47,625 nt of DNA from a virus. Below, in pieces: positions 1,768 to 47,019 of this stretch. The position numbers and the translations under genes are program-made. The notes beneath the pieces are model-generated. The model did no database searches. It was not told the DNA's origin and saw nothing but the letters and a program-made list of their open reading frames with translations. The first letter of the stretch is position 1. Every line of letters begins with the position of its first letter. The stretch is from positions 1 through 47,625 of IMG/VR virus record IMGVR_UViG_3300042897_000946; one strand, written 5' to 3'.

Positions 1768-1796
1768 ATTATACAGTACCTGACTAACCGTGTCAA
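1768..1796 (-). promoter_or_regulatory. Sigma-70 promoter, perfect consensus
   Basis: Minus strand TTGACA (1796-1791), 17-bp spacer, TATAAT (1773-1768). The -35 box overlaps the last codons of the SNF2 helicase gene. It drives 1409-1741 and the genes after it. Confidence 0.85.
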
Positions 1797-8985: not shown

Positions 8986-9587
8986 TTCATCAACCCCTCT
9001 GCCGATGGTGAACCCGAACCGCAACAGGCTTTAACTATGGTGTTCAACTCCCTAATGCTATCGACCACTGAAGTGGCACAAATCAAATCGCCCCCGCTAG
9101 CTGTTAGCACCAACTTGCCCACACTACCCGCTGAACCGACTGCGACTGCGCCATTCTTGTCCAACGTTAACTTACCGCCGTCTTCAAATTGTAATTCGAT
9201 ATTATCTAAATATTCAGCCTCAAGAATTGGTATAAAATACCCACTAGAACGCCCACGGATGCGGTCTTGAGATACCTTACCTGCGTCGATATCCGCCACA
9301 TCGTAGTCCGTTACGAACATCAAGCCCCGCATGCCCACTTTTGGCTTAACAAAAATTGAAACATTCTGCCCGCCGATAGCCCCATACTTAACATCTTCAT
9401 AATCCAGCGGATCAACATCCACACGCTTACCACCTACGTCATAAGTTATAGCGTCGATTATTTGCTTAACATTCACAGTCTTGTCGTTAACTTTAGTTAT
9501 CTCGGCTGGTACACAAGAAGCCTCGCGTCTTGACGCCCCCCGTTCACGCTGCCGAAGCATAGTATCTAAATCCTCTTCACCCATCAT
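8982..9587 (-). CDS. Baseplate central spike (gp138/gpV-like)
   Basis: 201 aa. A short helical start is followed by an OB-fold-like domain (about 25-130: VPAEITKVNDKTVNVKQII, VSIFVKPKVGMRGLMFV) and a strand-rich region (NIELQFEDGGKLTLDKNGAVAV) typical of the triple beta-helix of membrane-piercing spikes. GSGSPSAEGLMK closes the chain. There is no visible iron-binding HxH tip. ATGA-type overlaps on both sides couple it to the hub gene and the gp25-like gene. The SD is weak (GGTGGT), so it depends on translational coupling. Confidence 0.82.
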   Translation of the reverse strand: MMGEEDLDTMLRQRERGASRREASCVPAEITKVNDKTVNVKQIIDAITYDVGGKRVDVDPLDYEDVKYGAIGGQNVSIFVKPKVGMRGLMFVTDYDVADIDAGKVSQDRIRGRSSGYFIPILEAEYLDNIELQFEDGGKLTLDKNGAVAVGSAGSVGKLVLTASGGDLICATSVVDSIRELNTIVKACCGSGSPSAEGLMK

Positions 9588-10495
9588 GTTACACCACCGA
9601 TCTTGCGTTGTTTTTTACGTTTAACTTTACCATCTGCCCCTATTTCCTTTAGTTTAATGGCACACCCATGCTGACCATTAGACGTACTGGCTGAAAAGGC
9701 GACTTCCTCGATTTTATAACCACCGTTAATCCTCGGATTCCCCTCGGCGTTCGATCTAACACCTATTTTCATGCTGGGACGTAGGTCATGAATCAATAGA
9801 GTCCTGATATCGACACCGTCATCATTAAATACTGGGCTTCCAATCAATCCATTCTCGGGGGTCAAAATATATTTAGAGTCCTCTAAATGTTCGTCGCGTT
9901 TATGGAAATGTAGCTTTCCGTCGGTGATCATCCAAACTGAATCAGTAGAGTAGGCTACATCATTTAAAATTTCACGCGCCGATTCGCCATTAAACGTCAA
10001 AGTCCTGCCGACTTGTTTGTCATCAACTTTGATAGTACCCTTTTTGACACCTCGCTCGACCATTGCATCAGCTGCGGCGTCCACTTGACCTTTATAAGAA
10101 CCTTTGGGCACTTTCTTCTTAACAGTGGCGTGAGTGTGTGCCTCATCACCGTCACCGATGTTGATAACAGTCTTTCTATTCGCACCTTCTCGATTGGTGA
10201 TGGCTTGTCGAATTTTACCCTTAAACACAAGCCCTTTAAAGTGCTCACGACCCTCGGGCGCATACCCAGCCCATATTTCTATTTCTTCATTTTCAACTAA
10301 GACTTGCCGCGCTGTTTGCGCACTTAGATTCAAAATAACGATTTCTGCGTCGTTGGGGGCAGACCCACTTTTCATTGAACAGTTAATGTCAATCCTAAGC
10401 GGTTTGTCGATAGAATAGCCATTGAAAGTATTGCAGCCCCCAATTCTGACCCCCGATTTAACAAAGACGAGTTCTAAAAATCGATTATATAACAT
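9584..10495 (-). CDS. Baseplate hub protein (gpD/gp44-like)
   Basis: 303 aa. Strand-rich N-terminus with DAEIVILNLSAQTARQV (about 50-66), followed by VLVENEEIEIWAGYAP and FKGLVFKGKI, the barrel pattern of phage hub proteins. Later segments GRTLTFNGESAREILNDVAYSTDSVWMITDGKLHF match the second barrel of the gpD/XkdQ family. The trimeric hub joins tube to spike. The basic C-terminus (KRKKQRKIGG) is notable. Its start overlaps the 10485-10784 gene by 11 nt, and no strong SD is seen. Confidence 0.82.
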   Translation of the reverse strand: MLYNRFLELVFVKSGVRIGGCNTFNGYSIDKPLRIDINCSMKSGSAPNDAEIVILNLSAQTARQVLVENEEIEIWAGYAPEGREHFKGLVFKGKIRQAITNREGANRKTVINIGDGDEAHTHATVKKKVPKGSYKGQVDAAADAMVERGVKKGTIKVDDKQVGRTLTFNGESAREILNDVAYSTDSVWMITDGKLHFHKRDEHLEDSKYILTPENGLIGSPVFNDDGVDIRTLLIHDLRPSMKIGVRSNAEGNPRINGGYKIEEVAFSASTSNGQHGCAIKLKEIGADGKVKRKKQRKIGGVT

Positions 10496-10784
10496 ATACT
10501 AGTACCGTTTGGGGTATACCATCAGCATAATTAACAACTAGCCTGTTGTACCAATTAGGTTGGGGGCAGGGAACTGAATTAGTGACCAATAACGTACCTC
10601 CAACTGACTCCAACAGATTCACACCAGCTTCTAAGAATTTCCCAGCCACAATAGCAGTTACGCCCTCAGAATCGAATAGCGTGAAAGACCACGCATTGCT
10701 AAGGTGGTTATAATTCAATCTAACTCTATAGTCAGACACCCCGAATTCTTGGCTGGGCGATTGTTCAAGTTGAATTAAGTTCAT
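10485..10784 (-). CDS. Baseplate plug/gp18-like small protein
   Basis: 99 aa, nearly all beta: QEFGVSDYRVRLNYNHLSNAWSFTLFDSEG, then AGKFLEAGVNLL and NWYNRLVVNY. This layout (Q-F-L, a Y-N-W strand pair, then a glycine-rich 'AGKFL..G.NLL') is that of the small baseplate plug proteins found between Dit-like and hub genes in myoviruses of this type. It probably plugs the tube-hub interface. It overlaps the upstream gene by 4 nt (ATGA). Confidence 0.75.
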   Translation of the reverse strand: MNLIQLEQSPSQEFGVSDYRVRLNYNHLSNAWSFTLFDSEGVTAIVAGKFLEAGVNLLESVGGTLLVTNSVPCPQPNWYNRLVVNYADGIPQTVLVYVI

Positions 10785-11440
10785 AGTCCAGTTGCCCCCC
10801 TAAGGAACCCGATAGCTTGACCAGCATAGGACACGATTTGAGCCTGCCGCGCCTGTCTAGTGGCCTCTAGAAGCGCTCGATCTGCTTCTGAATTCACTCG
10901 TTGATTAGCACTGTCAACAGAGCCTGATGAAGCCTTAAGCGGCGTTTTGGTTGTTGGCATTTTCGGAGCTTGGGCGAATCTAAACTCCATCAGCTCTAAG
11001 TCAATGATAAGAACGTTCGGGCGTTCAGCGTCACGCGAAGACCCTATGCGAATGATCGCCATATTGCGGAAAAAATGTGATCCTGTGTAAACATCAATAA
11101 GCGCATCCGGTTTAGTGGTCTGGCGACGCTTTAAAACAAGCAAAGCATCATAACAAGCATTGAGTTTAGCTAGTTGAGCCGCGGTTCCTATGACCCCCAA
11201 TGCACTGCCAACAAAGTTGCTCGCTGTCCCACATGAATTAGCCGAAACTTCAATGGTTAGGTTCAGCTTGGCAGCCGTGTCTTGGTTAAAATCAATCAAA
11301 TACGATCGATTCGGATCTTCTATCGGCTCTTGAGAAATGTCGGAGGATATTTCATCGTCCTGCCTCGTGGTAATATCCCACACTAAACCCTCAAATAAAA
11401 CACCAAGGGCTGGGATCATCGCTACGGTTTGAACTGCCAT
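10781..11440 (-). CDS. Dit-like/baseplate tail protein
   Basis: 219 aa. It begins with LGVLFEGLVWDITTRQDDEISSDISQEP (about 12-40), resembling the N-terminus of Dit-like tail proteins of myoviruses. Strands then lead to DVYTGSHFFRNMAIIRI and NVLIIDLELMEFRFA (about 150-165). An alanine/arginine-rich helix (LLEATRQARQAQIVSYAGQAIGFLRG) closes the chain. It probably forms the ring between tube end and hub. AGGGA precedes the ATG, which overlaps the tape-measure stop by one base. Gene order supports the call more than sequence does. Confidence 0.72.
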   Translation of the reverse strand: MAVQTVAMIPALGVLFEGLVWDITTRQDDEISSDISQEPIEDPNRSYLIDFNQDTAAKLNLTIEVSANSCGTASNFVGSALGVIGTAAQLAKLNACYDALLVLKRRQTTKPDALIDVYTGSHFFRNMAIIRIGSSRDAERPNVLIIDLELMEFRFAQAPKMPTTKTPLKASSGSVDSANQRVNSEADRALLEATRQARQAQIVSYAGQAIGFLRGATGL

Positions 11441-12966
11441 TATGCCGTCCCTGACATAGCTGCACCCCTGAATTGGCGATCAACCATGCTTGCCACTTGA
11501 CGGGGGTTTGAATTGTTGGGCGCGTTAACGGCAACATTGTATCTTTGATTATTATTAACCACGCCGCCTCCGCCGCCCCGCCAAGGCGTTGGGGAAGTTG
11601 AAGCAACGGGACTCGCACTGCCTGCCGGTGAACTGCCACCGAAGAAACCGCCCGTACCAAAAGATGGCATTTTCCACCCTGTGATCTTGTTCAGGCTGCT
11701 AATGATGGTATCTATGGTCATCATTAGTGGTCTAAAGGGGGCTGCCCAATCTATCCCTGACAAAACCCCGATGAAATTACTGAAGGCTGCTTTTAATGCT
11801 TCAATTTTCGATACCACCCACGATCTCAACTCTTCCCATTTAGCTTTCATGGCGTCAATCACCGACACGATTTTAGCTCTCATAGTTTCATAGGCGTTTA
11901 TGAATATCTGCTTATTCTGTATAATCCAATGTATCAGGGCGACAATACCAGCAATTAAGGCCACAACAGCTAGGGCTATCCAAGTTATGGGGTTCAACAG
12001 CAACGCCGCAGTCCAAGCTATCGTAGCCGCCACAACACCCCACAACGGGGCAAGGAGAAGCCCCAACGCCGCCACCATCGCGACGATAGCAGTGCCACCC
12101 AAAACTTTGATCACGGGCAACAAAAGGTCGTTTTCTTGAAGCCAACCAGCAGTTTTCTCAGTGACATCAGCTAACTTAGTACCTAATTCAGTCATCGCGG
12201 GCATCAAAGCAGTTGCTACCGAATTTTTAACCCCCTGAATTCGAGCGTTGGCCTTGCTCATCATGTCAGCATACGCCCCAGCAGCCGCCGCTTGTTCATT
12301 GGTCACCGCTCCGTTTTTAGCGGCTTCAGCGGTCAGGGCTGCGATGCCTTCTTTACCTTTCAACAACAACGGGATTAAGGATGTATTTATGCCCAATTTA
12401 CTGGCCATGGCAATCGCCTCTTGGTTGCTTAGACCCTGCATTTTACCAGCAATCTCTCCGAGTATTACTGAAGTGTCTTTAACCTTGCCTTGAGCATCCT
12501 TAACGTCAATGCCGAATTTAGCGAACATCTTACCGCCACGGCCAACCCCAAGTGCGGCTTCACCGATCTTGGAATTTAAACCACTAATGGATGATTTAAC
12601 CGCATTCATATTGGAACCGCTCATTTGAGCAGCATAACCCCATTGTGAGACCGCAGCGGCGGTAGTGCCGTTAGCCTCAGCAAAATCACCTAAGTCATCA
12701 AGAGTACCCGCAGTCTCGTCGACAAAGGATCGAATATCGCCTAAACTACCGACAAGCTTGGTGGCTAAGAAAGCTACGCCAGCGCCCGCCAGCATAGCCC
12801 CAGCCTTAACTTTATCCATGCCACCTGCGAACCTACCAGCACCTGCAGTAGTTCCATCAAGCGATGCCGTTGTACTAGACGCCGCTTTATCAACATCTTT
12901 TAACGCACTGGATACTTTTTCTTCACCTTTGACGTCCATGTTAATAAAAAAGTCCATCAAATTCAT
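11440..12966 (-). CDS. Tail tape measure protein
   Basis: 508 aa. Helical N-terminus (about 1-120) with KVSSALKDVDKAASSTTASL, then a TMP core with Ala/Gly-rich helices. A strongly hydrophobic segment (about 285-350, AIVAMVAALGLLLAPLWGVV and WIALAVVALIAGIVALIHWII) probably inserts into the inner membrane during DNA ejection. The C-terminus is Gly/Ser/Pro-rich with GGGGGVVNNN and NPRQVASMV. 508 aa implies a short tail. AAGGT precedes the ATG. It follows the frameshifted chaperone gene immediately (ATG overlaps its TGA), the canonical arrangement. Confidence 0.93.
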   Translation of the reverse strand: MNLMDFFINMDVKGEEKVSSALKDVDKAASSTTASLDGTTAGAGRFAGGMDKVKAGAMLAGAGVAFLATKLVGSLGDIRSFVDETAGTLDDLGDFAEANGTTAAAVSQWGYAAQMSGSNMNAVKSSISGLNSKIGEAALGVGRGGKMFAKFGIDVKDAQGKVKDTSVILGEIAGKMQGLSNQEAIAMASKLGINTSLIPLLLKGKEGIAALTAEAAKNGAVTNEQAAAAGAYADMMSKANARIQGVKNSVATALMPAMTELGTKLADVTEKTAGWLQENDLLLPVIKVLGGTAIVAMVAALGLLLAPLWGVVAATIAWTAALLLNPITWIALAVVALIAGIVALIHWIIQNKQIFINAYETMRAKIVSVIDAMKAKWEELRSWVVSKIEALKAAFSNFIGVLSGIDWAAPFRPLMMTIDTIISSLNKITGWKMPSFGTGGFFGGSSPAGSASPVASTSPTPWRGGGGGVVNNNQRYNVAVNAPNNSNPRQVASMVDRQFRGAAMSGTA

Positions 12967-13762
12967 GTCGATTTACCTTTCTTATTAGCCCTTTTGGATT
13001 CTTGATCGGATTCCCAATTTTGAACGGCTTGATCGTAGTCAAGCCTATCACAATATTCATGCATTTCGAAGATGTCATAGAAATCAAATACATCCTCGAT
13101 AAAAATCTCTTTATATGTGCATAGACCCTTGTTGATCAGTCTCCAAAAAAGCCATTTATCAGATATGTTTAACCCGTGACGGGTTCTAACTTCGGTTGTT
13201 CTTTTGTCAGCCCTTGGGAAGAGGTATTTATTGACACGTCCGTCTGTTTTAGACGTGATTGGATGATACCTCCCATTTGCTTCAAAAAATCTTGCGCATT
13301 CACCTCCAAATAGCAGAGGCCAAGGGCAATTAGATTTGATGTCATATCCTCAACCGCTTCATTGAGGGTGTCCTCATCGTTAAGCGGGACGAATTCTTTG
13401 GGGGTCTTTAAGAAAGAATTTTTAGCACACTCGATAATCAAAGCCTCGAATTGCTCATTACATAAAGCTGCCACGATTTTCGGTGCGACTTTGGTGAATT
13501 CAACAACGGCTTCGGCTTCCAAATTTTTAGCCTTCATCGCCGCACCCTTGGTGACCATCAGCATTAAATCGTCAATCTCACCGAACATGGAACCCAACCG
13601 ACGAATGAAGTTCAACCGTGTAGTGACGTTCAACTTATTCAGTCGGAACGTGTTTTCACCGATCGTCACCGAAAACGCTTTTTTCGAACCCACGATCGAC
13701 TCAATTTCGCCAATGTTCGGCGACATCAGTCGAGCCGCTTGATAAAACATACCTGAACTCAT
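12963..13762 (-). CDS. Tail assembly chaperone, -1 frameshift product (G-T type)
   Basis: Translation starts at 13762, shares 160 codons with the shorter product, slips -1 at TTTTTTG (13289-13283) and continues in an open -1 frame to a TGA at 12963, giving 266 aa. The -1 frame has no stop from just after about 13365 to 12963. Its C-terminus (SDKWLFWRLINKGL, then EIFIEDVFDFYDIFEMHEYCDRLDYDQ) looks like real protein, acidic and aromatic, unlike random read-through. In phages, G and GT proteins load on the tape measure to guide tube assembly. The TGA overlaps the tape-measure ATG. There is no start codon with an SD that could make the second part alone. Confidence 0.8.
13169..13762 (-). CDS. Tail assembly chaperone, unshifted product (G type)
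   Basis: 197 aa, mostly alpha-helical, with INLEAEAVVEFTKVAPKIVAA-like amphipathic helices and no membrane segment. Its position between tube and tape measure, together with the slippery sequence near its 3' end, identifies it as the G-type chaperone. The start ATG overlaps the tube gene's stop (TAATG) and has GGTGGA upstream. The last 37 codons after the slip site end in KLEPVTG. Confidence 0.85.
   Translation of the reverse strand: MSSGMFYQAARLMSPNIGEIESIVGSKKAFSVTIGENTFRLNKLNVTTRLNFIRRLGSMFGEIDDLMLMVTKGAAMKAKNLEAEAVVEFTKVAPKIVAALCNEQFEALIIECAKNSFLKTPKEFVPLNDEDTLNEAVEDMTSNLIALGLCYLEVNAQDFLKQMGGIIQSRLKQTDVSINTSSQGLTKEQPKLEPVTG
13283..13289 (-). other. Programmed -1 ribosomal frameshift site
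   Basis: T TTT TTG, in frame with the chaperone codons TTT TTG, fits the X XXY YYZ rule for -1 slippage. It is the only perfect heptamer I found in the zone where the -1 frame is open. Confidence 0.75.
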
Positions 13763-14211
13763 TATTCCACCGTTTGTAAGTTAGTAGCAGCGACATAACC
13801 GTCTACCGCTGCAAAGTTAAAGATAAATTCCGATGTGCCATCAGCATTGTTACCCCAAATTTTACCAGCGCGGTTCTTAAAACCAGCGCACGACACAGTG
13901 AACACTTCACCATTTAACAAATCACGGATTTCGAAATCTTCACGACGACCGAAATTACTAAATTGCAATTCGCGTAATTTGGCCGCCATCGGTGATCCAT
14001 CATTCATGAGTAGCGTTAACTCGCCCATGGTGTTGTTGTTGGTGTACACAATACTATATTTACCAGTGCCTGACGTTTTAATCTCAACGTCATCACCAGT
14101 GAACTCCAATTGAACAGCGGATGAATCATCCGCCAGTCCATCCTGCAGTAAAAGCCCACCCCAGTCAAGTTCAAGGTTAGCTAAGTTTACTGTTACCGTT
14201 TGACAAGCCAT
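13762..14211 (-). CDS. Tail tube protein (DUF3277-like)
   Basis: 149 aa, almost all beta. It has FTGDDVEIKTSGTGKYSIVYTNNN (about 38-62) and ELTLLMNDGSPMAAKLRELQ, as in tube proteins that follow DUF3383 sheaths. It forms the inner channel beneath the sheath. It is encoded 12 nt after the sheath gene. Length and fold pattern match the family as I remember it. Confidence 0.82.
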   Translation of the reverse strand: MACQTVTVNLANLELDWGGLLLQDGLADDSSAVQLEFTGDDVEIKTSGTGKYSIVYTNNNTMGELTLLMNDGSPMAAKLRELQFSNFGRREDFEIRDLLNGEVFTVSCAGFKNRAGKIWGNNADGTSEFIFNFAAVDGYVAATNLQTVE

Positions 14212-14223
14212 TTTTATTACTCC

Positions 14224-15564
14224 TTATGCGCCAGTGGTTTGGGTTGACAAGCGCACGCAAATAGTTAGTGGGACAAAGTGTACACCACCTGCGGGCACGT
14301 AGCAAGTTTCAAAGATTGGTGCAACGCGTTGGTTTTGGCGATCAGCCGCTTGCAAAATGAAATCCTCAGCCGCTACGATCCACGCCAAACCCTTACGAAC
14401 GACTTTTCGATTCCAATTTTGTTCGTCTGCGCTAAATAAACCATTTTTTTGTGCCGCCCCCAATTCACGCGCATAGGCACTGGCAATGCGAGACTTACCG
14501 CGAGCATCGTCGTAGGGTAAAACTTTGGATTGGCTCATCAATAAAGCAGTGGCATATTGCAATCGACGCTTGATATATAGCTTGATGTGGAGATGATCAA
14601 TCCATTCCCCCGTGCAAGTTTTGCCCGCGCTATAGCCAGAGAAGCCCAGCGCTTTAATGAACACGTTACCGTAGCCATTATTATTTTGACTGGTAGTACC
14701 ATCAGGGTTTTCACCGGTGATGGCTGCGACAGTTGAAGATGTGAACGAATCTACCTTAACGCCAACCCAACCAACGTTGTTCTTAGGTTTGAATTTCAGG
14801 GTGTAGGCTGCGTTCGGTTGCCCTAAATCTTGACCTGAAATATAGCCTGCAACTAAGGCATTGTGATATTTGACATAATTGGCCGTGACGATTTCGGTTG
14901 TGAATGTTGGATCGCCATTGTCATCTAACACGGGGTCACCATTGATATCGACAACTGGGACTTGTTGGGTTTGAACTGCCCCCGTGATCGGGTCACGGAC
15001 GGGTTCACACTGACCCTTAGTGTAAATCATAATACTGTTTGAATAGTTCAACGCCGCGTGTTGGCCTTTAGGGCTGTTAGCGTTGGCGGGGTTTTCGTTG
15101 GTAACATCGACCGATACCCACGTGTATAATTTATCGTTTGCGGTTGCCCAATAACCCATGTCAATGTCAGCAGCTGGAGTCAGCTGAACGTCGTGCGTAG
15201 AAGTCAAAACAAGCCAGCAATTATCACAAGCCGCAATCGCATCTAACGCTTGGATAATAGTCTCGTTAGTTGAGTCCCAATACCCGATTTTGAAATATTT
15301 TTTGATTTCACGGTTGGTGTTAGGGAAATAGTCATTGGCTGCTCTGACAATTTCACTGGATGCCGCGAAGTATCGTTTCACCTCGGGGGCACTGGTAACT
15401 GTAACCACGCGTTTAGTGGTGGATAACAGGCCACCGCCATCATCTTTGACCAAAATCATGAAATCCGTGCAGTCGGGACTGGCTACGTTAGTAGTATCAT
15501 CGATCGTAATGATTGATGAGTTAGACCGCCCGATGTCAGGATTACAAGTGTCTATGCAAGTCAT
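14224..15564 (-). CDS. Tail sheath protein (DUF3383-like)
   Basis: 446 aa. The pattern FMILVKDDGGGLLSTTKRVVTV, VKRYFAASSEIVRAANDYFPNTN and the central Gly/Asn-rich region with YVKYHNALVAGYISGQDLGQPNAAYTLKFK match the DUF3383 family of contractile sheath proteins. The C-terminal part (WIDHLHIKLYIKRRLQYATALL) is the subunit-contact region. It shows that the tail is contractile. GAGGAG precedes the ATG. An acidic insertion (DINGDPVLDDNGDPTF) looks like a surface loop. Confidence 0.9.
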   Translation of the reverse strand: MTCIDTCNPDIGRSNSSIITIDDTTNVASPDCTDFMILVKDDGGGLLSTTKRVVTVTSAPEVKRYFAASSEIVRAANDYFPNTNREIKKYFKIGYWDSTNETIIQALDAIAACDNCWLVLTSTHDVQLTPAADIDMGYWATANDKLYTWVSVDVTNENPANANSPKGQHAALNYSNSIMIYTKGQCEPVRDPITGAVQTQQVPVVDINGDPVLDDNGDPTFTTEIVTANYVKYHNALVAGYISGQDLGQPNAAYTLKFKPKNNVGWVGVKVDSFTSSTVAAITGENPDGTTSQNNNGYGNVFIKALGFSGYSAGKTCTGEWIDHLHIKLYIKRRLQYATALLMSQSKVLPYDDARGKSRIASAYARELGAAQKNGLFSADEQNWNRKVVRKGLAWIVAAEDFILQAADRQNQRVAPIFETCYVPAGGVHFVPLTICVRLSTQTTGA

Positions 15565-32820: not shown

Positions 32821-32871
32821 GGTCAAAATTAACCATACCATTATTATACCACAACTAATAGCGTGTGTCAA
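32821..32871 (-). promoter_or_regulatory. Sigma-70 promoter with quasi-palindromic operator
   Basis: Minus strand TTGACA (32871-32866), 17-bp spacer, TGG-TATAAT (32848-32843). Just downstream, GGTCAAAATTAACC (plus strand, 32821-32834) is a quasi-palindrome at about +3 to +16. The whole region is nearly identical to that at 38264-38314. Confidence 0.88.
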
Positions 32872-33437: not shown

Positions 33438-33466
33438 ATTATACCAGCCTTCAACCTGTCTGTCAA
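33438..33466 (-). promoter_or_regulatory. Sigma-70 promoter reading into a gene-free leader
   Basis: Minus strand TTGACA (33466-33461), 17-bp spacer, TGG-TATAAT (33443-33438). Perfect consensus. The -35 overlaps the end of the alarmone hydrolase gene. No gene lies downstream for about 640 nt, until 32796, so it makes either a long leader or a non-coding RNA through iteron copy B. Confidence 0.82.
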
Positions 33467-38263: not shown

Positions 38264-38314
38264 GGTCAAAATTAACCATACCGTTATTATACCATAACCA
38301 ATAGCGTGTGTCAA
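38264..38314 (-). promoter_or_regulatory. Sigma-70 promoter with quasi-palindromic operator
   Basis: Minus strand TTGACA (38314-38309), 17-bp spacer, TGG-TATAAT (38291-38286). GGTCAAAATTAACC (plus strand) lies at 38264-38277. About 64 of 68 bases match the promoter region at 32821-32871, by eye. Confidence 0.88.
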
Positions 38315-38340: not shown

Positions 38341-38865
38341 TTACAACAAATTGAATTCAGTTACTCCCGTCTTATTATTGTTGAACACGAACCACACATG
38401 ATTAAAGTGTGAAGTTACCAGTTCCCCGCCAGACTCGATCACTAACCTTTCGGGTATCACATACATCTTTGTACACAACTCATTCATCGCTTTTACTCTG
38501 GACTTAGCAGCTGCGAAACCCAAAGGCAACAACAGTATCACATCATGCTCAGTCAAACTCGTCAACTTTTCCACAAATTTCACAGCATTCTTATATGGTG
38601 GGTTGCTCACAATAACTGAATTAAACAGTTCAGTCCTAATTAAAACGTCATCACCCGTGGTAATATCAGTTGATATAACTGAATGGCCTTTTTTATTTAA
38701 GTAGTTGCTGATATGGTTCATACCGCACATCGGCTCGTATATTGTATTTGGCAATGTTGACCCTATCCGATCATACAATAAATCCAACGCTCTAATTGGC
38801 GTGGGGTAGTAATCGTTAGGTTGCCTATTTTTATTGACCTTATGGTGACTATGGTTATACTTCAT
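38341..38865 (-). CDS. Adenine-type DNA methyltransferase (NPPY)
   Basis: 174 aa. N-terminal NDYYPTPIRALDLL (about 17-30), SAM-binding motif I YEPMCGMNHI (43-52), acidic TDITTGDD (66-73) and the catalytic NPPY (88-91), as in small amino-methyltransferases of phages. It should transfer methyl from SAM to an exocyclic N6 amino group. Target-recognition region is very short. AAGGA precedes the ATG. It ends the PurZ operon. In a phage predicted to lack adenine, its substrate may be 2-aminoadenine or host DNA. Confidence 0.82.
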   Translation of the reverse strand: MKYNHSHHKVNKNRQPNDYYPTPIRALDLLYDRIGSTLPNTIYEPMCGMNHISNYLNKKGHSVISTDITTGDDVLIRTELFNSVIVSNPPYKNAVKFVEKLTSLTEHDVILLLPLGFAAAKSRVKAMNELCTKMYVIPERLVIESGGELVTSHFNHVWFVFNNNKTGVTEFNLL

Positions 38866-39289
38866 TTGTTAGTTCCTTAATTAATAGTATGATATTTAAT
38901 TCATCGAATGAATGATGACAAGACAACTGCACCATTTCTTCCCAAGACAAACCACCCACCGTGTCAGTTTTGTTGTGTGGGATTAACGCATATAAAGTAG
39001 ACCACGATCGCCCGCCCGTTACCTCAACAAACAAAAAGCAATGGCCGCCGCGTCTGCCGTGACGCTTTAACCATTGCCTTTGTTCGGCGGTGAAATGGGG
39101 TATATTCACTTTACCCAATTTATTGATTTCCACAGTCTTTAGTTCAATCCACCCATTAACACCATTCATCGAATAAGACACGTCAGGGATGCCCTTAGTG
39201 TGTTTATCCTCATGGCGTTGAGCCGCCCAATAGGGCGACATTTTACTTTGGATTAATGACCAAAAAGCCGTTTCAGTTCTTTTCGCCAT
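38855..39289 (-). CDS. PD-(D/E)XK nuclease, VRR-NUC/resolvase-like
   Basis: 144 aa. Catalytic motif GIPDVSYSMNGVNGWIELKT: D36, then E49-x-K51, preceded by the helix with E7 and followed by HFTAEQRQWLKRHGRRGG, the layout of VRR-NUC-type nucleases that act as junction resolvases. It may cut branched replication intermediates before packaging. It overlaps the methyltransferase gene by 11 nt and the DUF1599 gene by 17 nt. Weak SD, so coupled translation is likely. Confidence 0.82.
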   Translation of the reverse strand: MAKRTETAFWSLIQSKMSPYWAAQRHEDKHTKGIPDVSYSMNGVNGWIELKTVEINKLGKVNIPHFTAEQRQWLKRHGRRGGHCFLFVEVTGGRSWSTLYALIPHNKTDTVGGLSWEEMVQLSCHHSFDELNIILLIKELTNEV

Positions 39290-39800
39290 CTTGCTTTTTC
39301 AGGAAGTTGGGGATGTCATCGGCACTCATCACACTTACTTTAATTGAAGTCCCTGCGAACATTTTCTGCAGCGCACACGACGGGCAATCGCACTCTTCAT
39401 CGCTGCCAGCGTTTGCCTGTAGCCCGCTGAAAAATTCCGCCACCAAATCATCAATGGGCTTTTTGATGTCGTCTTCTTTCACAACGGGGCTGATTGCCCG
39501 CTTTTCGGTGATGATCGATTTCAGTAAGATTAGATATAAAATCGCGTCATCGATTCGACCGAAAATTGGCTCGGATTCTGATTGACCCCCGCTGCGGACA
39601 AAATTTTTAATCGAATCGATGTGTTTTGTTAAAAAGACCAAATTCACCGCTTCGGGTGATAAGTCTAATTCTTCCGACAGCCGTTTAAAATTAGCTAACT
39701 GGTCATCGGAATTGGCATATTCAACGCCCTTAGATTCAGTTAATTTGTGCATCGTTTCAAATGTTTGATCGATGACGCTCTTGAAGTTTTGGTGGTTCAT
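39273..39800 (-). CDS. DUF1599-like nucleotide-modification-associated protein
   Basis: 175 aa. The first 100 residues (KGVEYANSDDQLANFKRLSEEL, VFLTKHIDSIKNFV, EPIFGRIDDAILYLILLKSII) match DUF1599, called 'nucleotide modification associated domain 1'. All-helical, with acidic residues that could bind magnesium like MazG. A C-terminal CDCPSCALQKMF suggests a metal site. Its place in the PurZ operon suggests a nucleotide-pool job, such as hydrolysis of an unwanted dNTP. AAAGGC precedes the ATG. Confidence 0.78.
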   Translation of the reverse strand: MNHQNFKSVIDQTFETMHKLTESKGVEYANSDDQLANFKRLSEELDLSPEAVNLVFLTKHIDSIKNFVRSGGQSESEPIFGRIDDAILYLILLKSIITEKRAISPVVKEDDIKKPIDDLVAEFFSGLQANAGSDEECDCPSCALQKMFAGTSIKVSVMSADDIPNFLKKQDGEKN

Positions 39801-40075
39801 TTTGAAGCCTTTCTGTGTAATGCCGATTTCTCGGCGGAAGTTAATGGCGGCGGTTTGGGCTTATCTGAATTGTTTTGGGCTACGCTATTTTTTCTATACA
39901 CAGCTACGTTAACTGTGCCTCGGCGAACCCAATCACTGACGTGGATTTTTCTTAAAAGTTTCAATATCATGATGTGGTATTGCGCCGATCTCTTGGTCAC
40001 CTTTAATTTGTTGGATACTTCCAACGCAGTCAAACCCGAACCCAAGCATGCTAGAATTTTGTCTTGAATATCCAT
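39797..40075 (-). CDS. Winged-helix DNA-binding protein
   Basis: 92 aa. Residues 1-60 (IQDKILACLGSGLTALEVSNKL, KVTKRSAQYHIMILKLLRKIHVSDW) form a classic wHTH with a recognition helix at about 25-40. The basic tail is disordered (DKPKPPPLTSAEKSALHRKASK). Start ATG at 40075 overlaps the DatZ stop (TGATG). It may regulate the phage early-to-late switch or the operon itself. Confidence 0.82.
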   Translation of the reverse strand: MDIQDKILACLGSGLTALEVSNKLKVTKRSAQYHIMILKLLRKIHVSDWVRRGTVNVAVYRKNSVAQNNSDKPKPPPLTSAEKSALHRKASK

Positions 40076-40635
40076 CACAAGCCCCCCTCGATATTACTAT
40101 CGAGCAGCGACTCAACCTCACCCCAATTAATGTTAGGGTGACGCTCCTTGTAAAATTCGAACTTGGTTTTCAATTCCGAACGAAGAGAAACACAAATCTT
40201 GTTGGCATTAGAACCTAAGCCATTCATGTGCAAGAAATCAATCGATTCGGCCAAATCCGCAATTTTAACGATGGCGGCGGCCACTGGTGCCTCAACTTCA
40301 GCCATGAAGCGCAGGGTATCGACCGATTTAGAAATACCGCTGTCGATGCATTTCTCGTTGCCTCGAGACGCCATCAACGCCTTGGTGGGGGTTGGAATAT
40401 CACCTACTATTACTTCGGGCAGGTCGTGAAGTAGTGACCACCCTCCAATAACGGCTCTAGCTATTGGATCGTCCCAGCCATCTTTCTCAAGAACCCCCAC
40501 GATCGCTAAGCAGATAGTATATGTGCGATACATGTGTTCAGCAATCGATTGACGAACAGCGACGTTAACTATCTGCCAGCGATCAACATGGGACGCTCTC
40601 AACATCTCTTGTAAACTAAGCTCCTGCTGCGTCAT
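40075..40635 (-). CDS. datZ: HD-domain dATP triphosphohydrolase (DatZ-type)
   Basis: 186 aa from the ATG at 40635 (AAGGG SD); an ATG five codons earlier lacks one. YfbR-like HD fold: AEH (H34), HD in LLHDLPEVIVGD (H70, D71) and KIADLAESIDFL (about 130-141). Close relatives in Z phages (DatZ) strip triphosphate from dATP and so remove adenine from the pool. W20 and I22 stand in the base-recognition region; I recall similar residues in S-2L DatZ from memory only. It overlaps the MazZ gene by 20 nt, in the PurZ operon. A YfbR-type 5'-nucleotidase is the alternative. Confidence 0.85.
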   Translation of the reverse strand: MTQQELSLQEMLRASHVDRWQIVNVAVRQSIAEHMYRTYTICLAIVGVLEKDGWDDPIARAVIGGWSLLHDLPEVIVGDIPTPTKALMASRGNEKCIDSGISKSVDTLRFMAEVEAPVAAAIVKIADLAESIDFLHMNGLGSNANKICVSLRSELKTKFEFYKERHPNINWGEVESLLDSNIEGGL

Positions 40636-41110
40636 GGTAACCCTTTTCATAAGTGGTGATCAGATTTTGATCGCCCGATGTGCCGAATTCATAGCCCATG
40701 GGTTGACAAAGACACCCATTATTTGAATCCTTCACGCCGCACTCATACGCGAAGACTTCTTCATCCGATAAATGCTGCATCGTCCCCGTTTCGGTTTCGC
40801 GCCATGTTCGGTGTTCGTTGACGTACATTTTATGTTCGATAGCCTGTGCAATGTTGACGCCGTTCATTGATGCTAAATCAAACAACATGATACAAATGTC
40901 AGCATATTCATCAGGTTTTTTTGGGTCTTTCACTAGCTCGCCAATCTCTTCGTACATCTTCAATAAAGCTGATTGTTGTGTGCGCTGCGGGAAAGTGCGG
41001 TCAGCCCAGCCGACGATACGGTCGGTTAGTTGTTGAATGCTTGGTTCTTCACCAATGGGGGAAACGTGGGTAAATTGTCCCAAGTCTGGGAATAAGCTAT
41101 TTTGGATCAT
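40616..41110 (-). CDS. mazZ: DUF550/MazZ-type purine dNTP pyrophosphohydrolase
   Basis: 164 aa from the ATG at 41110, overlapping the PurZ stop (ATGA); a GTG at 41167 lies inside purZ. Helical MazG-like site YEEIGELV (53-60, EExxE) and EYADICIMLFDLA (68-80, ExxD) bind magnesium. In Z phages such enzymes turn dGTP (and dATP) into monophosphates, supplying dGMP to PurZ. The C-terminal part (about 100-164) holds CGVKDSNNGCLCQPMGYEFG, an extra cysteine-rich segment. Gene order PurZ-MazZ-DatZ is the strongest argument for its role. Confidence 0.87.
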   Translation of the reverse strand: MIQNSLFPDLGQFTHVSPIGEEPSIQQLTDRIVGWADRTFPQRTQQSALLKMYEEIGELVKDPKKPDEYADICIMLFDLASMNGVNIAQAIEHKMYVNEHRTWRETETGTMQHLSDEEVFAYECGVKDSNNGCLCQPMGYEFGTSGDQNLITTYEKGYHDAAGA

Positions 41111-42300
41111 TGTGACGCCCCCCCGTTGACGCAACTCAATGGTCGGCCTGCTCGTGAATCCCCCCACATTTGGGTCACTTCAGCTTCAATGACACGGAAG
41201 TCTCGATCAGTGTTAATGCTAACCACATCGTTAACCGTGGCTCCAAACCCCAATATCAATTCGGGAGCTCCGATAGACTCATAAGATTTAGTTAAAATCT
41301 CGCGCATCTCTTCCTCGGTTCTGCAGTAATTAATGAAATTCATAAACAGTACATCAACGCCACACATGAACGCCGCTTCTTGGATCTGGGCGGCGCTGAA
41401 AGTGAAGATTCGACGAGGTAGTTTAGTTACTGTGGTGAATTCGGTTGATTGACCCAAATCCTCAAAAGTGATTTCTTCTTGATCAGAATAGCAGTCACCT
41501 GAATAGCCCACCTGCTTGCCGTTTTCGTCGTAACGATTAGCCACTCGAATCGGGAAAGTTCGAGCAGTTCCATACACCTTAACAAGTTTAATTAGGGTAT
41601 GAGGGATGCCACAGTCGGCAAGCACTTGAGCGGTTGTGACGTCGCGGCTGGTGGTGTATGGGTACATGCCGTGATACATCGACAAACTGTAGCCCTGTGC
41701 GCCTTCAATTTGGACAACCTCAGCTTGGTTCAGGGCTTGCAACCAAGCATCAGTGTCAACAATCTTAATTAAATTCGGATGTGAGTTACATAACTTCAGA
41801 ACAGCAATACTGGTCTCAGCGTCGTAATGATAGCCGAACGTATTGAGGTCACGGGGGTCGCGGCGGATTCGCTGGATTTGTGCCGCACCACACCCCTTTT
41901 TAGTTGATCCAATTCGAGTATTTGCGCCAAGGTGTTCATTTTCCTCGTCGCGGTGTCGCTGCTCAATGACAGCTGCGTTTTTGTGGATGTAGATTTTAAC
42001 GTCGTCACCCAATAAATCAATGCAGGCGTTGATTTCGTTCAACAGACTCACTGGGTCGATAAGGGAACCCGCGCCGATCATGACTTGCTTTAAATTCGGT
42101 GATACAACACCATTAGCCAGCATAGTGTGCACGAACTTGCGCCCATCGGCGTTGATGTAGGTGTGGCCAGCATTGGCCGCCCAAGCGGTGATCACCGTGT
42201 CGGGTTTAGTGGTCTCGGCTAAGTAACCTGCAAGCAACCCCTTGCCCGTTGAACCGAATTGTAAGTCCACAATAACATTAATTTGCTTCATTTGCTTCAT
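41107..42300 (-). CDS. purZ: PurZ: 2-aminoadenylosuccinate (succino-dZMP) synthase
   Basis: 397 aa, a full PurA-like fold. The P-loop is QFGSTGKG (14-21) in place of PurA's GDEGKG, so the catalytic Asp of PurA is replaced by Ser17, as known for PurZ. Other PurA landmarks remain: NAGHTY (H46), GSTKKGCGAAQ, EGAQGYSLSMYHGMYPYTTS (the IMP/dGMP site region) and KLPRRIFTF near the aspartate site. It condenses dGMP with L-aspartate, using ATP or GTP, to the succino-adduct that host PurB converts to dZMP. GAGGAT precedes the ATG. Own perfect promoter at 42360-42388; first gene of the operon. Confidence 0.93.
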   Translation of the reverse strand: MKQMKQINVIVDLQFGSTGKGLLAGYLAETTKPDTVITAWAANAGHTYINADGRKFVHTMLANGVVSPNLKQVMIGAGSLIDPVSLLNEINACIDLLGDDVKIYIHKNAAVIEQRHRDEENEHLGANTRIGSTKKGCGAAQIQRIRRDPRDLNTFGYHYDAETSIAVLKLCNSHPNLIKIVDTDAWLQALNQAEVVQIEGAQGYSLSMYHGMYPYTTSRDVTTAQVLADCGIPHTLIKLVKVYGTARTFPIRVANRYDENGKQVGYSGDCYSDQEEITFEDLGQSTEFTTVTKLPRRIFTFSAAQIQEAAFMCGVDVLFMNFINYCRTEEEMREILTKSYESIGAPELILGFGATVNDVVSINTDRDFRVIEAEVTQMWGDSRAGRPLSCVNGGASQ

Positions 42301-42359
42301 TTTCTCTATCCTCTACTATTATTAAAAACTAACCAAAATGGCGCTGTTGCCAAGTTTTA

Positions 42360-42388
42360 ATTATACCCCAACCAATAGCGCGTGTCAA
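42360..42388 (-). promoter_or_regulatory. Sigma-70 promoter of the PurZ operon
   Basis: Minus strand TTGACA (42388-42383), 17-bp spacer, TATAAT (42365-42360). Start near 42353, leader about 53 nt with GGTTAGTTTT, similar to the operators at 32821 and 38264. Confidence 0.87.
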
Positions 42389-42393
42389 TTAGG

Positions 42394-43101
42394 CTACTTT
42401 GAAATCAACAAATACTCAAACATTTCCTTTGCGGGATTCATCGCGTTGGTATTACCAAACTCATGGACAACACTGAATTTTTCTTTGAACATTTCAGGTT
42501 TATTGTGTGTGATGAACACTGTATTGTTTGATGTCAGTTCATTGGAAAATTCTACGAACCCCCGCGTGTTGAACCCCTCGCAATCAACCAAATAAGGCGT
42601 TGTGTCCACATCATGGTATGGTGGATCTAAATACACCACAGAATCTTTGACACTGGAAAAAACTGAAAAATCAAGGTTAGTGAAGACTGGGTCAATTAAC
42701 TTTCGCAATTTTCTAGTAGTGCTATTTATAAACTCGTTAGTGTAGTTCCCGCGACCGTCCTTATACGTCTTTCCGTATAACCCGATCCCCCTCCCATAAC
42801 ATCCGCCCCACTGTAGGCCTATTGTGAACATGGCATGCAGTGGGTGATTGGGATTTGCGACGGCTTCCACCCTGATTTCTTCACTGTGGCTTACCTCATA
42901 GCCGCTGTCTATTATGAATTCATACATTCTGATCAACGGTTCGTTAAGGTCATTTAAGGTTTGGCTTTTCGCCCCGATTATTCTGCTGCTCACCCCGAGC
43001 CCGCCACAGAACAAATCGTAGTAATCTAAGCCCTTTACTCTATCGTTTATGTGTTCTGCAACAACTTTACCTTGTCGGGTCTTCCCGCCATAATATCTCA
43101 T
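42394..43101 (-). CDS. D12-class adenine methyltransferase (Dam-like)
   Basis: 235 aa from the ATG at 43101, overlapping the polymerase stop (ATGA), with GGGAGG upstream. Motifs: YYGGKTRQGK (3-12), DLFCGGLGVSS (29-39, SAM motif I) and VVYLDPPYHD (about 160-169, catalytic DPPY). The FNTRGFVEFSNEL region follows as in D12 enzymes. It should methylate N6 of adenine in a short site, Dam-like. Encoded between DpoZ and PurZ, though the phage's own DNA is predicted to contain Z instead of A. Function in that setting is a question, not a known fact. Confidence 0.88.
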   Translation of the reverse strand: MRYYGGKTRQGKVVAEHINDRVKGLDYYDLFCGGLGVSSRIIGAKSQTLNDLNEPLIRMYEFIIDSGYEVSHSEEIRVEAVANPNHPLHAMFTIGLQWGGCYGRGIGLYGKTYKDGRGNYTNEFINSTTRKLRKLIDPVFTNLDFSVFSSVKDSVVYLDPPYHDVDTTPYLVDCEGFNTRGFVEFSNELTSNNTVFITHNKPEMFKEKFSVVHEFGNTNAMNPAKEMFEYLLISK

Positions 43102-44930
43102 TTCGATGCCTCCCACCAATTATCGCCGATTCCCTGATCAGTTCTAATTGGAACACGGAAGTTGATACGGTCGGATTCCCCGAACGCAGTGACAATTCTC
43201 GATATGTCGGCACGGGTTTTAGTGTCGCCCTTGGGAACTGAACAGTCGAACTCATCATGCACGTTCAACATCAAGCGAGAACCATTGTTTTGCTCCTTAA
43301 AGTATAACCATAACTCAATCAGTTTTACTTTCAGTGCATCAGCTGCTGTGCCTTGGAAAATCAAACCACCGGCCTTATGTGTAAATTGACCACGTGGGAA
43401 TCGGATATTTCGACCTAAAATCGTCTTAACAAATCCTCGAGATTTGGCCACCGCCGACGCTTTACCAAGAAGTGACTGGACTCCTGGTATCGAACTATGG
43501 TATTTTTCAAACACGGCCATCGCTTCCGCCCCCGGCTTAACGTAAGTTTTCCCGCCATAACCCGCAACTATCTCACATGGCAAACCCATTTCTTGAGCCA
43601 GTTTCCCTTGACCCATACCAAACACCAACCCTAGATTGATTTGCTTAGCATTGGGGTCACCTGAAAACCGCCCTGATCGAGGCAGCCCAGTCATGTCGCT
43701 AGTTAACTGATGGAAGTCGGTGTCGGGGTTGTCAGTGTACATTTGAATGATGCGGGGGTCATTAACATAATGAGAAAAAACTCGAAAATCCATTTGTGCC
43801 CAGTCGTTACATACCCAATCATGTTCAAAAGAGTCTGGTAAAAATAAAGCCCTGACTACCGAGGCAATATCCGCATCACGCTTATGGATTTGCTGTAAGG
43901 CTGGTGAATTCACCGACAGTCGGCCAGTGATTGTGCCAAGGTCGTTGTCGCTACGGGTTTGGTTGAAATTCGCATGAACCCGACCATTGTTGGCGTGTGC
44001 AAGGATGTGGCCTTTCAAGAATGTGTCGCGAGTTTTCAGCATTTTGCGTAGGGATAAAATCAAAGCCGCTGCTGGATGCTTCATGATTCGCAGGGTGTTA
44101 GCATCGATTGACGCTTTCCCGGCACCAGTGGCCGTGGCCATCGTTCCATCGCATAAAGTCCACTGACCATCGATTAATTCAGGCTTAAATAGTTGATGGA
44201 TCGAACCTGATGGGTTCGGGTTGACTTCAAAGCCAGCCAATTGGTTCAACTCTCGTTGCTTTTGGTCAGCGATTGTGGTGATAGTCTTCACTGCTTTTCT
44301 TGCTTCATCTTCATCAACTCGCACACCCTCAAATTCGATATCTACGAGAACTGGGATCAATTGGCGCTCCAGTTCACACACCTCCTGCAATTCCTGTTTT
44401 TCAATCAAACCTTGCTGGAAATCATATAAATCTAAGCACGTTCGAGTGTCTTGCTTGGCATATCGCTCAACGATTGATGACGGCGCACGGCTAATATTCT
44501 TCATTTGGACGCCTTTAGTCGCTGCTCCCCCAAAAATATCGGCTAATTCCCGGTACATATCGGTGTCTTTACCGACACCGAGGTATTTCTTGCCAACCGA
44601 ATCCAAGTCATAAGACAGCAAATGCTCATCGATTATGGCAGCCCTCACCATCGTGTCATCACATCGATCCCATGGCAGGATTATCCCTAGTTCGCGTGAA
44701 AAATGCCAATCAAATTTAATATTATGTCCCACAATTAATTTGCAGTGAGGTAAAGTGTCTCGCAACCACTCCACCACTCGGGGGGTGTTCCTGATGTCCC
44801 AATAATAATCCCGCCCGTCGGGGGTTGAGATCGATACACCGAAGATTTTATCTTTCCACCAATGTAAACCTGTGGTCTCGGTATCATACGCAATTCGATC
44901 GAATTGCAATAAATCTGGGAATTGGCTCAT
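43098..44930 (-). CDS. dpoZ: Family A DNA polymerase with 3'-5' exonuclease (DpoZ-type)
   Basis: 610 aa. Exonuclease: ExoI DTETTG (D16, E18), ExoII GHNIKFD (D74), ExoIII YAKQD (D161). Polymerase: motif A NDWAQMDFR (about 375-383), motif B AKQINLGLVFGMG (about 428-440), motif C NVHDEFD (about 556-562). No 5'-3' nuclease domain. Polymerases of this layout found next to purZ (DpoZ) favour dZTP over dATP, and the exonuclease helps remove adenine. It is probably the phage replicase. AAGGG precedes the ATG. Exclusive use of Z cannot be told from sequence. Confidence 0.93.
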   Translation of the reverse strand: MSQFPDLLQFDRIAYDTETTGLHWWKDKIFGVSISTPDGRDYYWDIRNTPRVVEWLRDTLPHCKLIVGHNIKFDWHFSRELGIILPWDRCDDTMVRAAIIDEHLLSYDLDSVGKKYLGVGKDTDMYRELADIFGGAATKGVQMKNISRAPSSIVERYAKQDTRTCLDLYDFQQGLIEKQELQEVCELERQLIPVLVDIEFEGVRVDEDEARKAVKTITTIADQKQRELNQLAGFEVNPNPSGSIHQLFKPELIDGQWTLCDGTMATATGAGKASIDANTLRIMKHPAAALILSLRKMLKTRDTFLKGHILAHANNGRVHANFNQTRSDNDLGTITGRLSVNSPALQQIHKRDADIASVVRALFLPDSFEHDWVCNDWAQMDFRVFSHYVNDPRIIQMYTDNPDTDFHQLTSDMTGLPRSGRFSGDPNAKQINLGLVFGMGQGKLAQEMGLPCEIVAGYGGKTYVKPGAEAMAVFEKYHSSIPGVQSLLGKASAVAKSRGFVKTILGRNIRFPRGQFTHKAGGLIFQGTAADALKVKLIELWLYFKEQNNGSRLMLNVHDEFDCSVPKGDTKTRADISRIVTAFGESDRINFRVPIRTDQGIGDNWWEASK

Positions 44931-45253: not shown

Positions 45254-45535
45254 TTAAAATGGGATGTCACCATCCGAAAGGCCTGCGGAGGCTGGTCGAG
45301 ATGTCTTTGTGTCGTCCCAACTTTTCGAACCAGCATTTTTGCTATTGGGTTGTTGCCCATCCTTGAGCGTGAAAGCAAGTGAATAATAAGCGCCCTTGGT
45401 GCTGGTTTTATCCCACCCTGCCACCCAATATTCAACCCCATCAACTGTGGCCGACCCACGGATGTCGGGATGGTTTTCTTGGGTCTTTCGGTCGTTCTTG
45501 CTAATGATACCATTGTTGTTGTATTGTGCAGCCAT
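45254..45535 (-). CDS. SSB-like small replication protein
   Basis: 93 aa. Residues 1-60 carry GIISKNDRKTQENHPDIRGSATVDGVEYWVAGWDKTSTKG-type strands seen in short phage proteins related to DUF736 or OB folds. The C-terminus is disordered and ends in LSDGDIPF, matching the acidic, phenylalanine-ended tip by which bacterial SSB recruits partners. It probably coats ssDNA or docks replication enzymes. GAGGAA precedes the ATG; it is the first gene after promoter 45579-45607. Confidence 0.75.
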   Translation of the reverse strand: MAAQYNNNGIISKNDRKTQENHPDIRGSATVDGVEYWVAGWDKTSTKGAYYSLAFTLKDGQQPNSKNAGSKSWDDTKTSRPASAGLSDGDIPF

Positions 45536-45578: not shown

Positions 45579-45607
45579 ATTATAACACACGCTGTTGGTT
45601 TCGTCAA
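45579..45607 (-). promoter_or_regulatory. Sigma-70 promoter of the DpoZ operon
   Basis: Minus strand TTGACG (45607-45602), 17-bp spacer, TGT-TATAAT (45584-45579). The leader holds a GGC-GAAA-GCC mini-hairpin. It overlaps the end of the UvrD-like gene. Confidence 0.82.
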
Positions 45608-47019
45608 TTTAACTCAAACCCATTGTCGCCCTCGTAAATCAACAAATCATGCTTCACTCGGGTCAGCCCCACATACCACACGCGGATTTCAGCATCTCGA
45701 TCGGTCAGCATACTATCGATCGTTTTTTGCGTCAGGCCTGTGTGTAAAACCACTTTACTTGCCTCACCGCCCTTGGCTCCATGGATGGTCGATATTCTAA
45801 CCGTCGGCGGTTTAGACAGATCCACCGATTTGTAAAGTTGAATGTGCTCTAGCGGGACGTTAATCGCACCCTCCCAGCCCAACTTAACCAAACCTTTCAA
45901 ATTCCCCCCCTCAAATATGTCCTTGCCTCGGGGCGTCAACACTTTCTTTAACTGCCCTAACTCGCGACTGGACAGCCCATCACCATTTTTCAAAACTCCC
46001 AGCAGTTTGATACCTTTAGCCACTGAATTTTCAAACGGGTTCTTGTAGGGGTCAGGCGATATAAACGGCACGGCGTTGTTGATAAGTTCTATTTCCATTT
46101 CTTTTCGGGTGATGAAGTTTCGGCACAACACCAACACGTCATCGCCATTGAACGAATCTTTGGTGATTAATTGAGTGCGTTGGATTGACCCCTTGTGACC
46201 AGCCGAACTATAAATTTTATCAACCCGTTTGGAAGTAGTTTTGATTAACCGTTCAGCCATGTCGTGGACAGTTTTGGGGATACGATGGGACTGACTTAGT
46301 ACAATTCGTTCAGAGTTATACTTCAATTCGAATTCTTGCATGCCATGGGGGTTCGCGCCCGACCACTCAAAAATCGCCTGATCGTCATCCCCCGCCACAA
46401 TAACTAAATCCACTGGGTTGGCTCTAATAATTGACTCTATTACTGACCACTGTAAATTAGATAAATCTTGAGCCTCGTCAACGATAAGACATCTACAACC
46501 GAAATCCACTGGGCTATCGCGATACATACGGAGCATATCCGAGAAGTCGAAGAAGCCATTCAGACGCTTCCATCGGGTGTAAGTATTACAGAAAAATTCG
46601 AAATCCGAGAAAGACCCCACACGTTGGCTTGTGTAAAATGCTTCTTCGGGTGTCACTTGCATAGCTTCGGCTCTGCCTAACATGAAAATGTAGTAATCAC
46701 CCAGTTCAAGTTCCTCGAACTCTACGTTGACAGTCCCTCTGAATTTAAAGCCCGATATTTGGCCGAAATCCTTTAAAGTTTGAGAACTAACCACACCAGC
46801 CGATGATAATTCCATCTTATTGAAACAAAGCGAATGGATAGTTGACACATTAGATTTTTTGAGGTTGGAACGATGTGTGGCTTCAAGTGCGGCTGTCTTG
46901 GTGAATGAGACATAATAGACCGAGTCGCTCCCATATTTGCTTACAGCTTCATCAGACAATTCAACCAGCGTGTGGGTCTTGCCAGTACCTGGACTTCCGT
47001 ATATGACTTTGCTTTTCAT
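45604..47019 (-). CDS. UvrD/Rep-type superfamily 1 helicase
   Basis: 471 aa, shorter than cellular UvrD. Walker A IYGSPGTGKTHT (6-17), motif II LIVDEAQDLS (about 174-183), motif III VAGDDDQAIFEWSGA, motif IV ILSQSHRIPKTVHDMAE, motifs V-VI RISTIHGAKGGEASKVV and VWYVGLTRVKHDLL. It should move 3'-5' on ssDNA and unwind forks or recombination intermediates for DpoZ. The subdomain 1B/2B insertions are reduced, as in Dda-like phage helicases. SD weak (AGAG). Confidence 0.93.
   Translation of the reverse strand: MKSKVIYGSPGTGKTHTLVELSDEAVSKYGSDSVYYVSFTKTAALEATHRSNLKKSNVSTIHSLCFNKMELSSAGVVSSQTLKDFGQISGFKFRGTVNVEFEELELGDYYIFMLGRAEAMQVTPEEAFYTSQRVGSFSDFEFFCNTYTRWKRLNGFFDFSDMLRMYRDSPVDFGCRCLIVDEAQDLSNLQWSVIESIIRANPVDLVIVAGDDDQAIFEWSGANPHGMQEFELKYNSERIVLSQSHRIPKTVHDMAERLIKTTSKRVDKIYSSAGHKGSIQRTQLITKDSFNGDDVLVLCRNFITRKEMEIELINNAVPFISPDPYKNPFENSVAKGIKLLGVLKNGDGLSSRELGQLKKVLTPRGKDIFEGGNLKGLVKLGWEGAINVPLEHIQLYKSVDLSKPPTVRISTIHGAKGGEASKVVLHTGLTQKTIDSMLTDRDAEIRVWYVGLTRVKHDLLIYEGDNGFELN

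Follow-up and report, generated by a model that had tools for sequence, protein, structure and literature searches.

Does this locus equip a phage to replace adenine (A) in its DNA by 2-aminoadenine (Z), and what would an adenine methyltransferase encoded among the replacement genes do there? We propose that the locus is a phage Z-genome operon with an embedded, Z-phage-associated D12 methyltransferase that would be co-translated with the polymerase DpoZ, a reading to which we give a probability of about 0.9. Z modules of this kind are known; the version with the embedded methyltransferase is new. The window, by which we mean the whole stretch of DNA analysed, is an IMG/VR virus record of 47,625 bases for which a megablast comparison with phage records gave no match, and every gene discussed here lies on its minus strand.

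Layout of the Z gene set

An earlier note had described a Z-genome biosynthesis and replication module made of four adjacent genes. The module was borne out by all computational tests (HMMs, residues and the PurZ tree), and dpoZ, purZ, mazZ and datZ are all intact open reading frames on the minus strand, just where the note had placed them. The claim of adjacency did not stand, given that a D12 methyltransferase gene separates dpoZ from purZ; its omission from the earlier listing of the interval is of consequence, as this gene bears on the identity of the final base. The features of the locus are as follows.

38855..39289, minus strand: VRR-NUC-like phrog_2165 protein, a conserved neighbour of Z clusters (phrog_2165; synteny)
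39273..39800, minus strand: phrog_6802 family protein (4e-20), recurrent downstream of datZ and D12-fused in the PurZ record L018
39797..40078, minus strand: small HTH-like protein over the datZ stop codon (PF12840 0.005, below the cut-off; homologues behind DatZ in L013 and L015)
40075..40650 (start 40650 or 40635), minus strand: datZ, predicted dATP triphosphohydrolase (phrog_7076; S-2L residues)
40616..41110, minus strand: mazZ, MazZ-1/DUF550 type without the DUF5664 fusion, predicted to convert dGTP to dGMP (PF04447; residues)
41107..42300, minus strand: purZ, predicted succino-2-aminodeoxyadenylate synthase (NF038379 362 bits; FGSTGKG; tree; PDB 7odx)
42360..42388, minus strand: sigma-70 promoter of perfect consensus (TTGACA-N17-TATAAT), immediately before purZ
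42394..43101, minus strand: predicted D12 (Dam-type) adenine-N6 DNA methyltransferase (PF02086; motifs; T4 Dam profile match)
43098..44930, minus strand: dpoZ, predicted Z-preferring family A polymerase with 3'-5' exonuclease (NF038380; 7pbk; residues)
45254..45535, minus strand: SSB-like single-strand DNA binding protein (phrog_7364 1e-16; its PMBT28/SH-Ab 15497 homologue lies between dpoZ and purZ)
45604..47019, minus strand: UvrD/Rep-like helicase, the gene next upstream in most of the related Z phages (PF00580, phrog_1967; synteny)

Below the end of datZ at 40075 the HTH-like, phrog_6802 and VRR-NUC-like genes and a second methyltransferase-like gene follow contiguously. The idea that the phrog_6802 protein is a MazG-like enzyme is unsupported, the protein being all-helical, with no significant PDB match and nothing in Pfam. 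The promoter upstream of purZ is one of six perfect sigma-70 promoters on the minus strand of the window, where 0.04 would be expected.

The gene order matches that of many environmental PurZ phages and of Salmonella phage PMBT28 and Acinetobacter phage SH-Ab 15497, which share with the window the succession of helicase, DpoZ, PurZ, MazZ, DatZ and VRR-NUC-like protein and whose PurZ and DpoZ are 48-49% and 47% identical to those of the window. They differ from it in the SSB gene, which they carry between dpoZ and purZ, whereas the window has D12 there and its SSB upstream of dpoZ; in MazZ, which is fused to DUF5664 in both and unfused in the window; and in the virion genes, which in the window are of the contractile-tail type. 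The likeness to cyanophage S-2L lies in the order purZ-mazZ-datZ, the unfused MazZ-1 and the identical key residues, but S-2L replicates with a PrimPol and without DpoZ (PMC8342488), and it carries no D12.

In the pathway that we envisage, MazZ would convert dGTP to dGMP, which PurZ would join to aspartate, with ATP, to give succino-aminodeoxyadenylate; host PurB and nucleotide kinases would complete dZTP, DatZ would destroy dATP, and DpoZ, preferring dZTP, would place Z opposite T in genome copying. Lastly, the D12 enzyme, co-translated with DpoZ, would methylate N6 of Z at certain sequences. The MazZ, PurZ, DatZ and DpoZ steps have been shown for homologues in the literature; for the window we predict them from phylogeny, gene order and the residues kept. 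The earlier remark that no purB is present agrees with the search for the PurB-type or adenylosuccinate lyase family (PF00206), which found no member on the window record, a linear record that may be incomplete; host PurB would therefore have to act, as for known Z phages.

The D12 methyltransferase and its tie to Z phages

The gene between dpoZ and purZ encodes a protein of 235 aa that scores 42.4 bits against PF02086 (cut-off 22) and has intact GGK, FCGGLG (motif I) and DPPY motifs. The first PDB match of a profile of its group is T4 Dam (1yfj, E 3.5e-11), which is the closest solved relative of the group and has motif I and DPPY in common with it. T4 Dam works in A-containing DNA, whereas the window enzyme belongs to a PurZ-linked subclade and would be co-translated with DpoZ: its start codon and the dpoZ stop codon share the sequence ATGA, which points to coupled translation. 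A structure model built from four sequences reached a mean pLDDT of 52 and was too poor to use.

We hypothesise that the enzyme methylates N6 of Z, thereby shielding sites where Z alone fails against nucleases, a proposal whose odds we put slightly below even. The broader proposition, that some Z phages including this one make N6-methyl-2-aminoadenine, an adenine modified twice over, through a Z-associated D12 lineage co-expressed with DpoZ, as a second layer of protection, is a shade more tentative still. It has to be weighed against the view, likewise not quite an even bet, that a solitary and unrelated methyltransferase, a mobile extra that targets leftover or host adenine or is useless, occupies its operon position by accident. 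Orphan methyltransferases are common in phages, and whole-record scans of 139 PurZ records found D12 in just 7, one of them the window, both of which favour an accidental presence. The lack of D12 in most PurZ records, tested isolates among them, also counts against our proposal, as do the long branch of the window enzyme (1.99) and its identity of only ~30% to its kin.

The position of the gene in the other PurZ records speaks against accident. Window aside, D12 lies inside the Z cluster in five of six such records, namely after DatZ and fused to a phrog_6802 domain in L018, between MazZ and DatZ in L078 and L080, and between DpoZ and PurZ in L227 and L257, while in L334 it lies outside. With roughly one eighth of the DNA belonging to the cluster, the binomial P ranges from 1.7e-4 to 7e-4 with the cluster length assumed, values which are optimistic because the cluster span was fixed after the first cases and some records are possibly near relatives. 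Position statistics drawn from loci of +/-10 kb only were weak (P 0.02), the whole-record survey being the stronger. The contigs with related non-Z polymerases (mostly one lineage) held D12 in 0 of 44 cases, and the other adenine-methyltransferase families PF01555 and PF05869 were absent from 50 PurZ records. That several distinct D12 lineages, those of L227 and L257, use the slot between DpoZ and PurZ is again what an accidental insertion would lead one to expect.

The link to Z was also approached from the opposite direction, through 66 viral loci fetched by the methyltransferase alone, three query contigs included. Beyond these three, L109, L124 and L158 turned out to encode PurZ-like proteins in which Ser replaces the Asp. 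In the D12 tree, the window, L018, L078, L080, L109, L124 and L158 form one clade with L122 (support 99/97), so that seven of its eight rows are PurZ-linked; outside it stand 47 rows without PurZ, E. coli Dam, and L227 with a Dam-like enzyme of its own. Monophyly of the seven PurZ-linked enzymes was not rejected (p 0.72), and among rows outside the query set PurZ accompanies three of the four clade members vs 0 of 47 outside (Fisher P 2e-4). The exception, L122, which counts against our proposal, is a 40-kb contig from which PurZ is absent and which may be a fragment. The PurZ proteins of the phages in this subclade are scattered over the PurZ tree, hence whole-phage common descent does not account for it. 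Taken as sequence evidence, this suggests a small D12 lineage found almost only in Z-type phages. An accidental methyltransferase is difficult to reconcile with a subclade that spans divergent PurZ lineages and with the coupling to DpoZ, and A-free DNA would in any case leave Z as the substrate.

The methyltransferases of E. coli act on Z-containing DNA at an efficiency reduced tenfold or more (cited in PMC8342488), and 6-methyl-2-aminoadenine gives resistance to endonucleases, an effect judged small for Z phages (cited and discussed in PMC8342488). On phage-encoded methylation of Z, or N6-methyl-Z in phage DNA, this discussion remark was all that a literature search returned, subscription papers such as the 2021 Science pathway papers being outside its scope. 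A phage-encoded methyltransferase in a Z operon would alter the judgement of a small effect, and the embedded gene raises a testable question: is Z methylated in nature, closing gaps in nuclease protection? If the D12 enzyme did evolve on Z-DNA, it could serve as a tool to mark such DNA.

Identity of the four enzymes and probable extent of A replacement

The DUF550 (MazZ) and HD (DatZ-type) hydrolases of the earlier note are confirmed by PF04447, phrog_7076 and the key residues kept. MazZ scores 38.5 bits against PF04447 (cut-off 23) and keeps the metal ligands E35, E38, E50 and D53 together with I56 and D60, the MazZ-1 guanine residues (residue roles and MazZ types from PMC8342488). Its ATG at 41110 overlaps the PurZ stop codon as ATGA and is most likely the start, rather than the GTG of the longest ORF. 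DatZ matches phrog_7076 "dATP triphosphohydrolase" (2e-26), with S-2L DatZ (6zpa) as its best PDB match, and all 15 of the 15 positions checked are identical to S-2L DatZ, including the HD metal ligands, I22, W20 and P79; I22 is attributed to the exclusion of the 2-amino group (DatZ residue roles from PMC8065100). Its ATG at 40635, right behind AAGGG, may be a likelier start than 40650.

The predicted polymerase, correctly anticipated as an exonuclease-bearing member of family A, scores 826 bits against NF038380 (cut-off 500), has phiVC8 DpoZ (7pbk) as its best PDB match and retains the exonuclease triad D16/E18/D74. It carries Phe at the steric-gate Tyr (F437), and L433 and G522 as equivalents of Leu455 and Gly548, the signature of the phiVC8 group (signature residues from PMC8599892). 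With the curated cut-offs passed where such exist and the key residues known from characterised enzymes of Z phages kept, chance is excluded as an explanation of the four predicted Z-gene assignments.

We are strongly inclined to regard the replacement of A by Z as complete or near-complete. Partial replacement, or a conditional use of the pathway that would make the DNA an A/Z mixture, seems to us highly improbable: the level of replacement cannot be read from sequence, and the PrimPol of S-2L shows that replacement can rest on more than the polymerase (PMC8065100), but the window encodes both an entire DatZ and a DpoZ that bears the selective signatures, which in known phages are companions of complete replacement.

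The synthase scores 362 bits against NF038379 (cut-off 300) and matches phrog_1211 (8e-88), and its best PDB match is S-2L PurZ (7odx, 4e-83). E. coli PurA reads WGDEGKG and the window protein FGSTGKG, the catalytic Asp being exchanged for Ser in common with other PurZ. The phylogeny that had been recommended as a check places the window in a tree of 50 rows with S-2L, phiVC8, SH-Ab 15497 and PMBT28 (support 99/93), phages whose Z content is taken from the literature, away from three PurA, which form one outside group, and three PurZ0, which form another. A synthase inside PurA with the Asp restored, the outcome named beforehand as damaging to the Z reading, was looked for and did not occur. 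Both PurA and PurZ0 identities are ruled out by the Ser and the tree position, as far as sequence allows, and the synthase is a predicted PurZ. That it is instead a PurA-like enzyme of ordinary purine supply among general nucleotide-pool enzymes, as its homology to PurA and membership of PF00709 might allow, has a negligible chance against the Ser, the NF038379 score, the tree and the DatZ, MazZ and DpoZ alongside.

Palindrome content and virion genes

With maximal-order Markov expectations for six-base palindromes, the window holds 15 G/C-only palindromes against 46.5 expected, with ratios of 0.90 for A-containing palindromes and 1.06 for G/C-only non-palindromes. In pooled PurZ loci the ratio for G/C-only palindromes was 0.18, 0.43 and 0.58 from the lowest to the highest G+C class, compared with 0.55-0.80 in D12-bearing controls and 0.83-0.87 in polymerase-matched non-Z contigs, control sets that are few or of one lineage. 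Sites of G and C only contain no A and thus lie beyond protection by Z; their avoidance fits restriction pressure on such sites and is offered as supporting evidence only. The idea that Z relieves the avoidance of A-containing sites was not borne out, since A-containing palindromes showed no relief in PurZ phages relative to the same few or single-lineage controls, a result that counts against our proposal. If upheld by better controls, the avoidance of G/C-only palindromes would flag Z genomes in metagenomes by sequence alone and would testify to restriction selection on natural Z phages.

The virion genes encode a sheath of the DUF3383/phrog_205 type, a search for the PF04984 sheath having given no match, together with an E217-type baseplate hub and wedge proteins. 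A contractile virion is therefore expected. The Z phages listed in PMC8342488 and PMC8599892 are siphoviruses and podoviruses only; the window module adds to the Z-DNA phages a divergent lineage with a probable contractile tail. DUF3383 was found on 7 of 50 PurZ records, including that of an isolate, Burkholderia phage Bm1.

Contractile-tail genes and palindrome avoidance

The window, which carries the Z module (Z, 2-aminoadenine), also encodes a set of contractile-tail genes at 7542-15564, and a DUF3383 sheath is found in six other PurZ records, among them Burkholderia phage Bm1, in a scan of 50 such records. Two papers name sipho- and podoviruses only among the Z phages (PMC8342488; PMC8599892).

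Contractile-tail genes in the window
8584-9024, wedge
9584-10495, baseplate hub
14224-15564, sheath (DUF3383)

Six-base palindromes composed only of G and C are strongly avoided in the PurZ phages (whole window; 126-158 PurZ loci), the avoidance being weaker in non-Z controls, and CCGG occurs in the window at 0.18 of expectation.

Promoters in the window

Six perfect sigma-70 promoters of the form TTGACA-N17-TATAAT are present, against 0.04 expected. The spacer is nearly identical in three of them, two of which (32843 and 38286) also have long leaders that are alike.

Perfect TTGACA-N17-TATAAT promoters
880-908, minus strand
1768-1796, minus strand
32843-32871, minus strand
33438-33466, minus strand
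38286-38314, minus strand
42360-42388, minus strand

Further genes near the Z module

Many PurZ loci encode, downstream of datZ, a phrog_6802 protein, which in the window lies at 39273-39800; in one comparison locus (L018:12548-13675) it is fused to a D12 methyltransferase, of the Dam-type adenine-N6 family. It is predicted to be all-helical, a fold for which comparison with known folds gave no match. We propose that it is possibly another Z-related gene. At a different locus, L158:8921-9964, the D12 gene of the Z cluster is broken into, or adjoined, in its 5' part by a transposase-like gene. Just downstream of the Z operon in the window lies a second methyltransferase-like gene (38341-38865; phrog_799, NPPY motif), near which it has a perfect promoter of its own; no homologues were seen in the other PurZ loci compared.

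Relatives of PurZ and DpoZ in other records

Two very divergent PurZ-like synthases, at L109:18921-20366 and L180:1480-2568, have Ser at the Asp position and form long branches close to the base of the PurZ tree. Within 10 kb of the L109 gene, neither a DatZ nor a DpoZ homologue was found. Among the nearest non-Z relatives of DpoZ is the polymerase of Stenotrophomonas phage vB_SM_ytsc_ply2008005c (L339), whose gene adjoins a 7-deazaguanine pathway; this is one more phage with modified bases, and it lies beside the DpoZ branch. PurZ clusters also occur in four contigs binned into bacterial metagenome-assembled genomes (L173, L174, L175 and L176), which are probably phage contigs or prophages.
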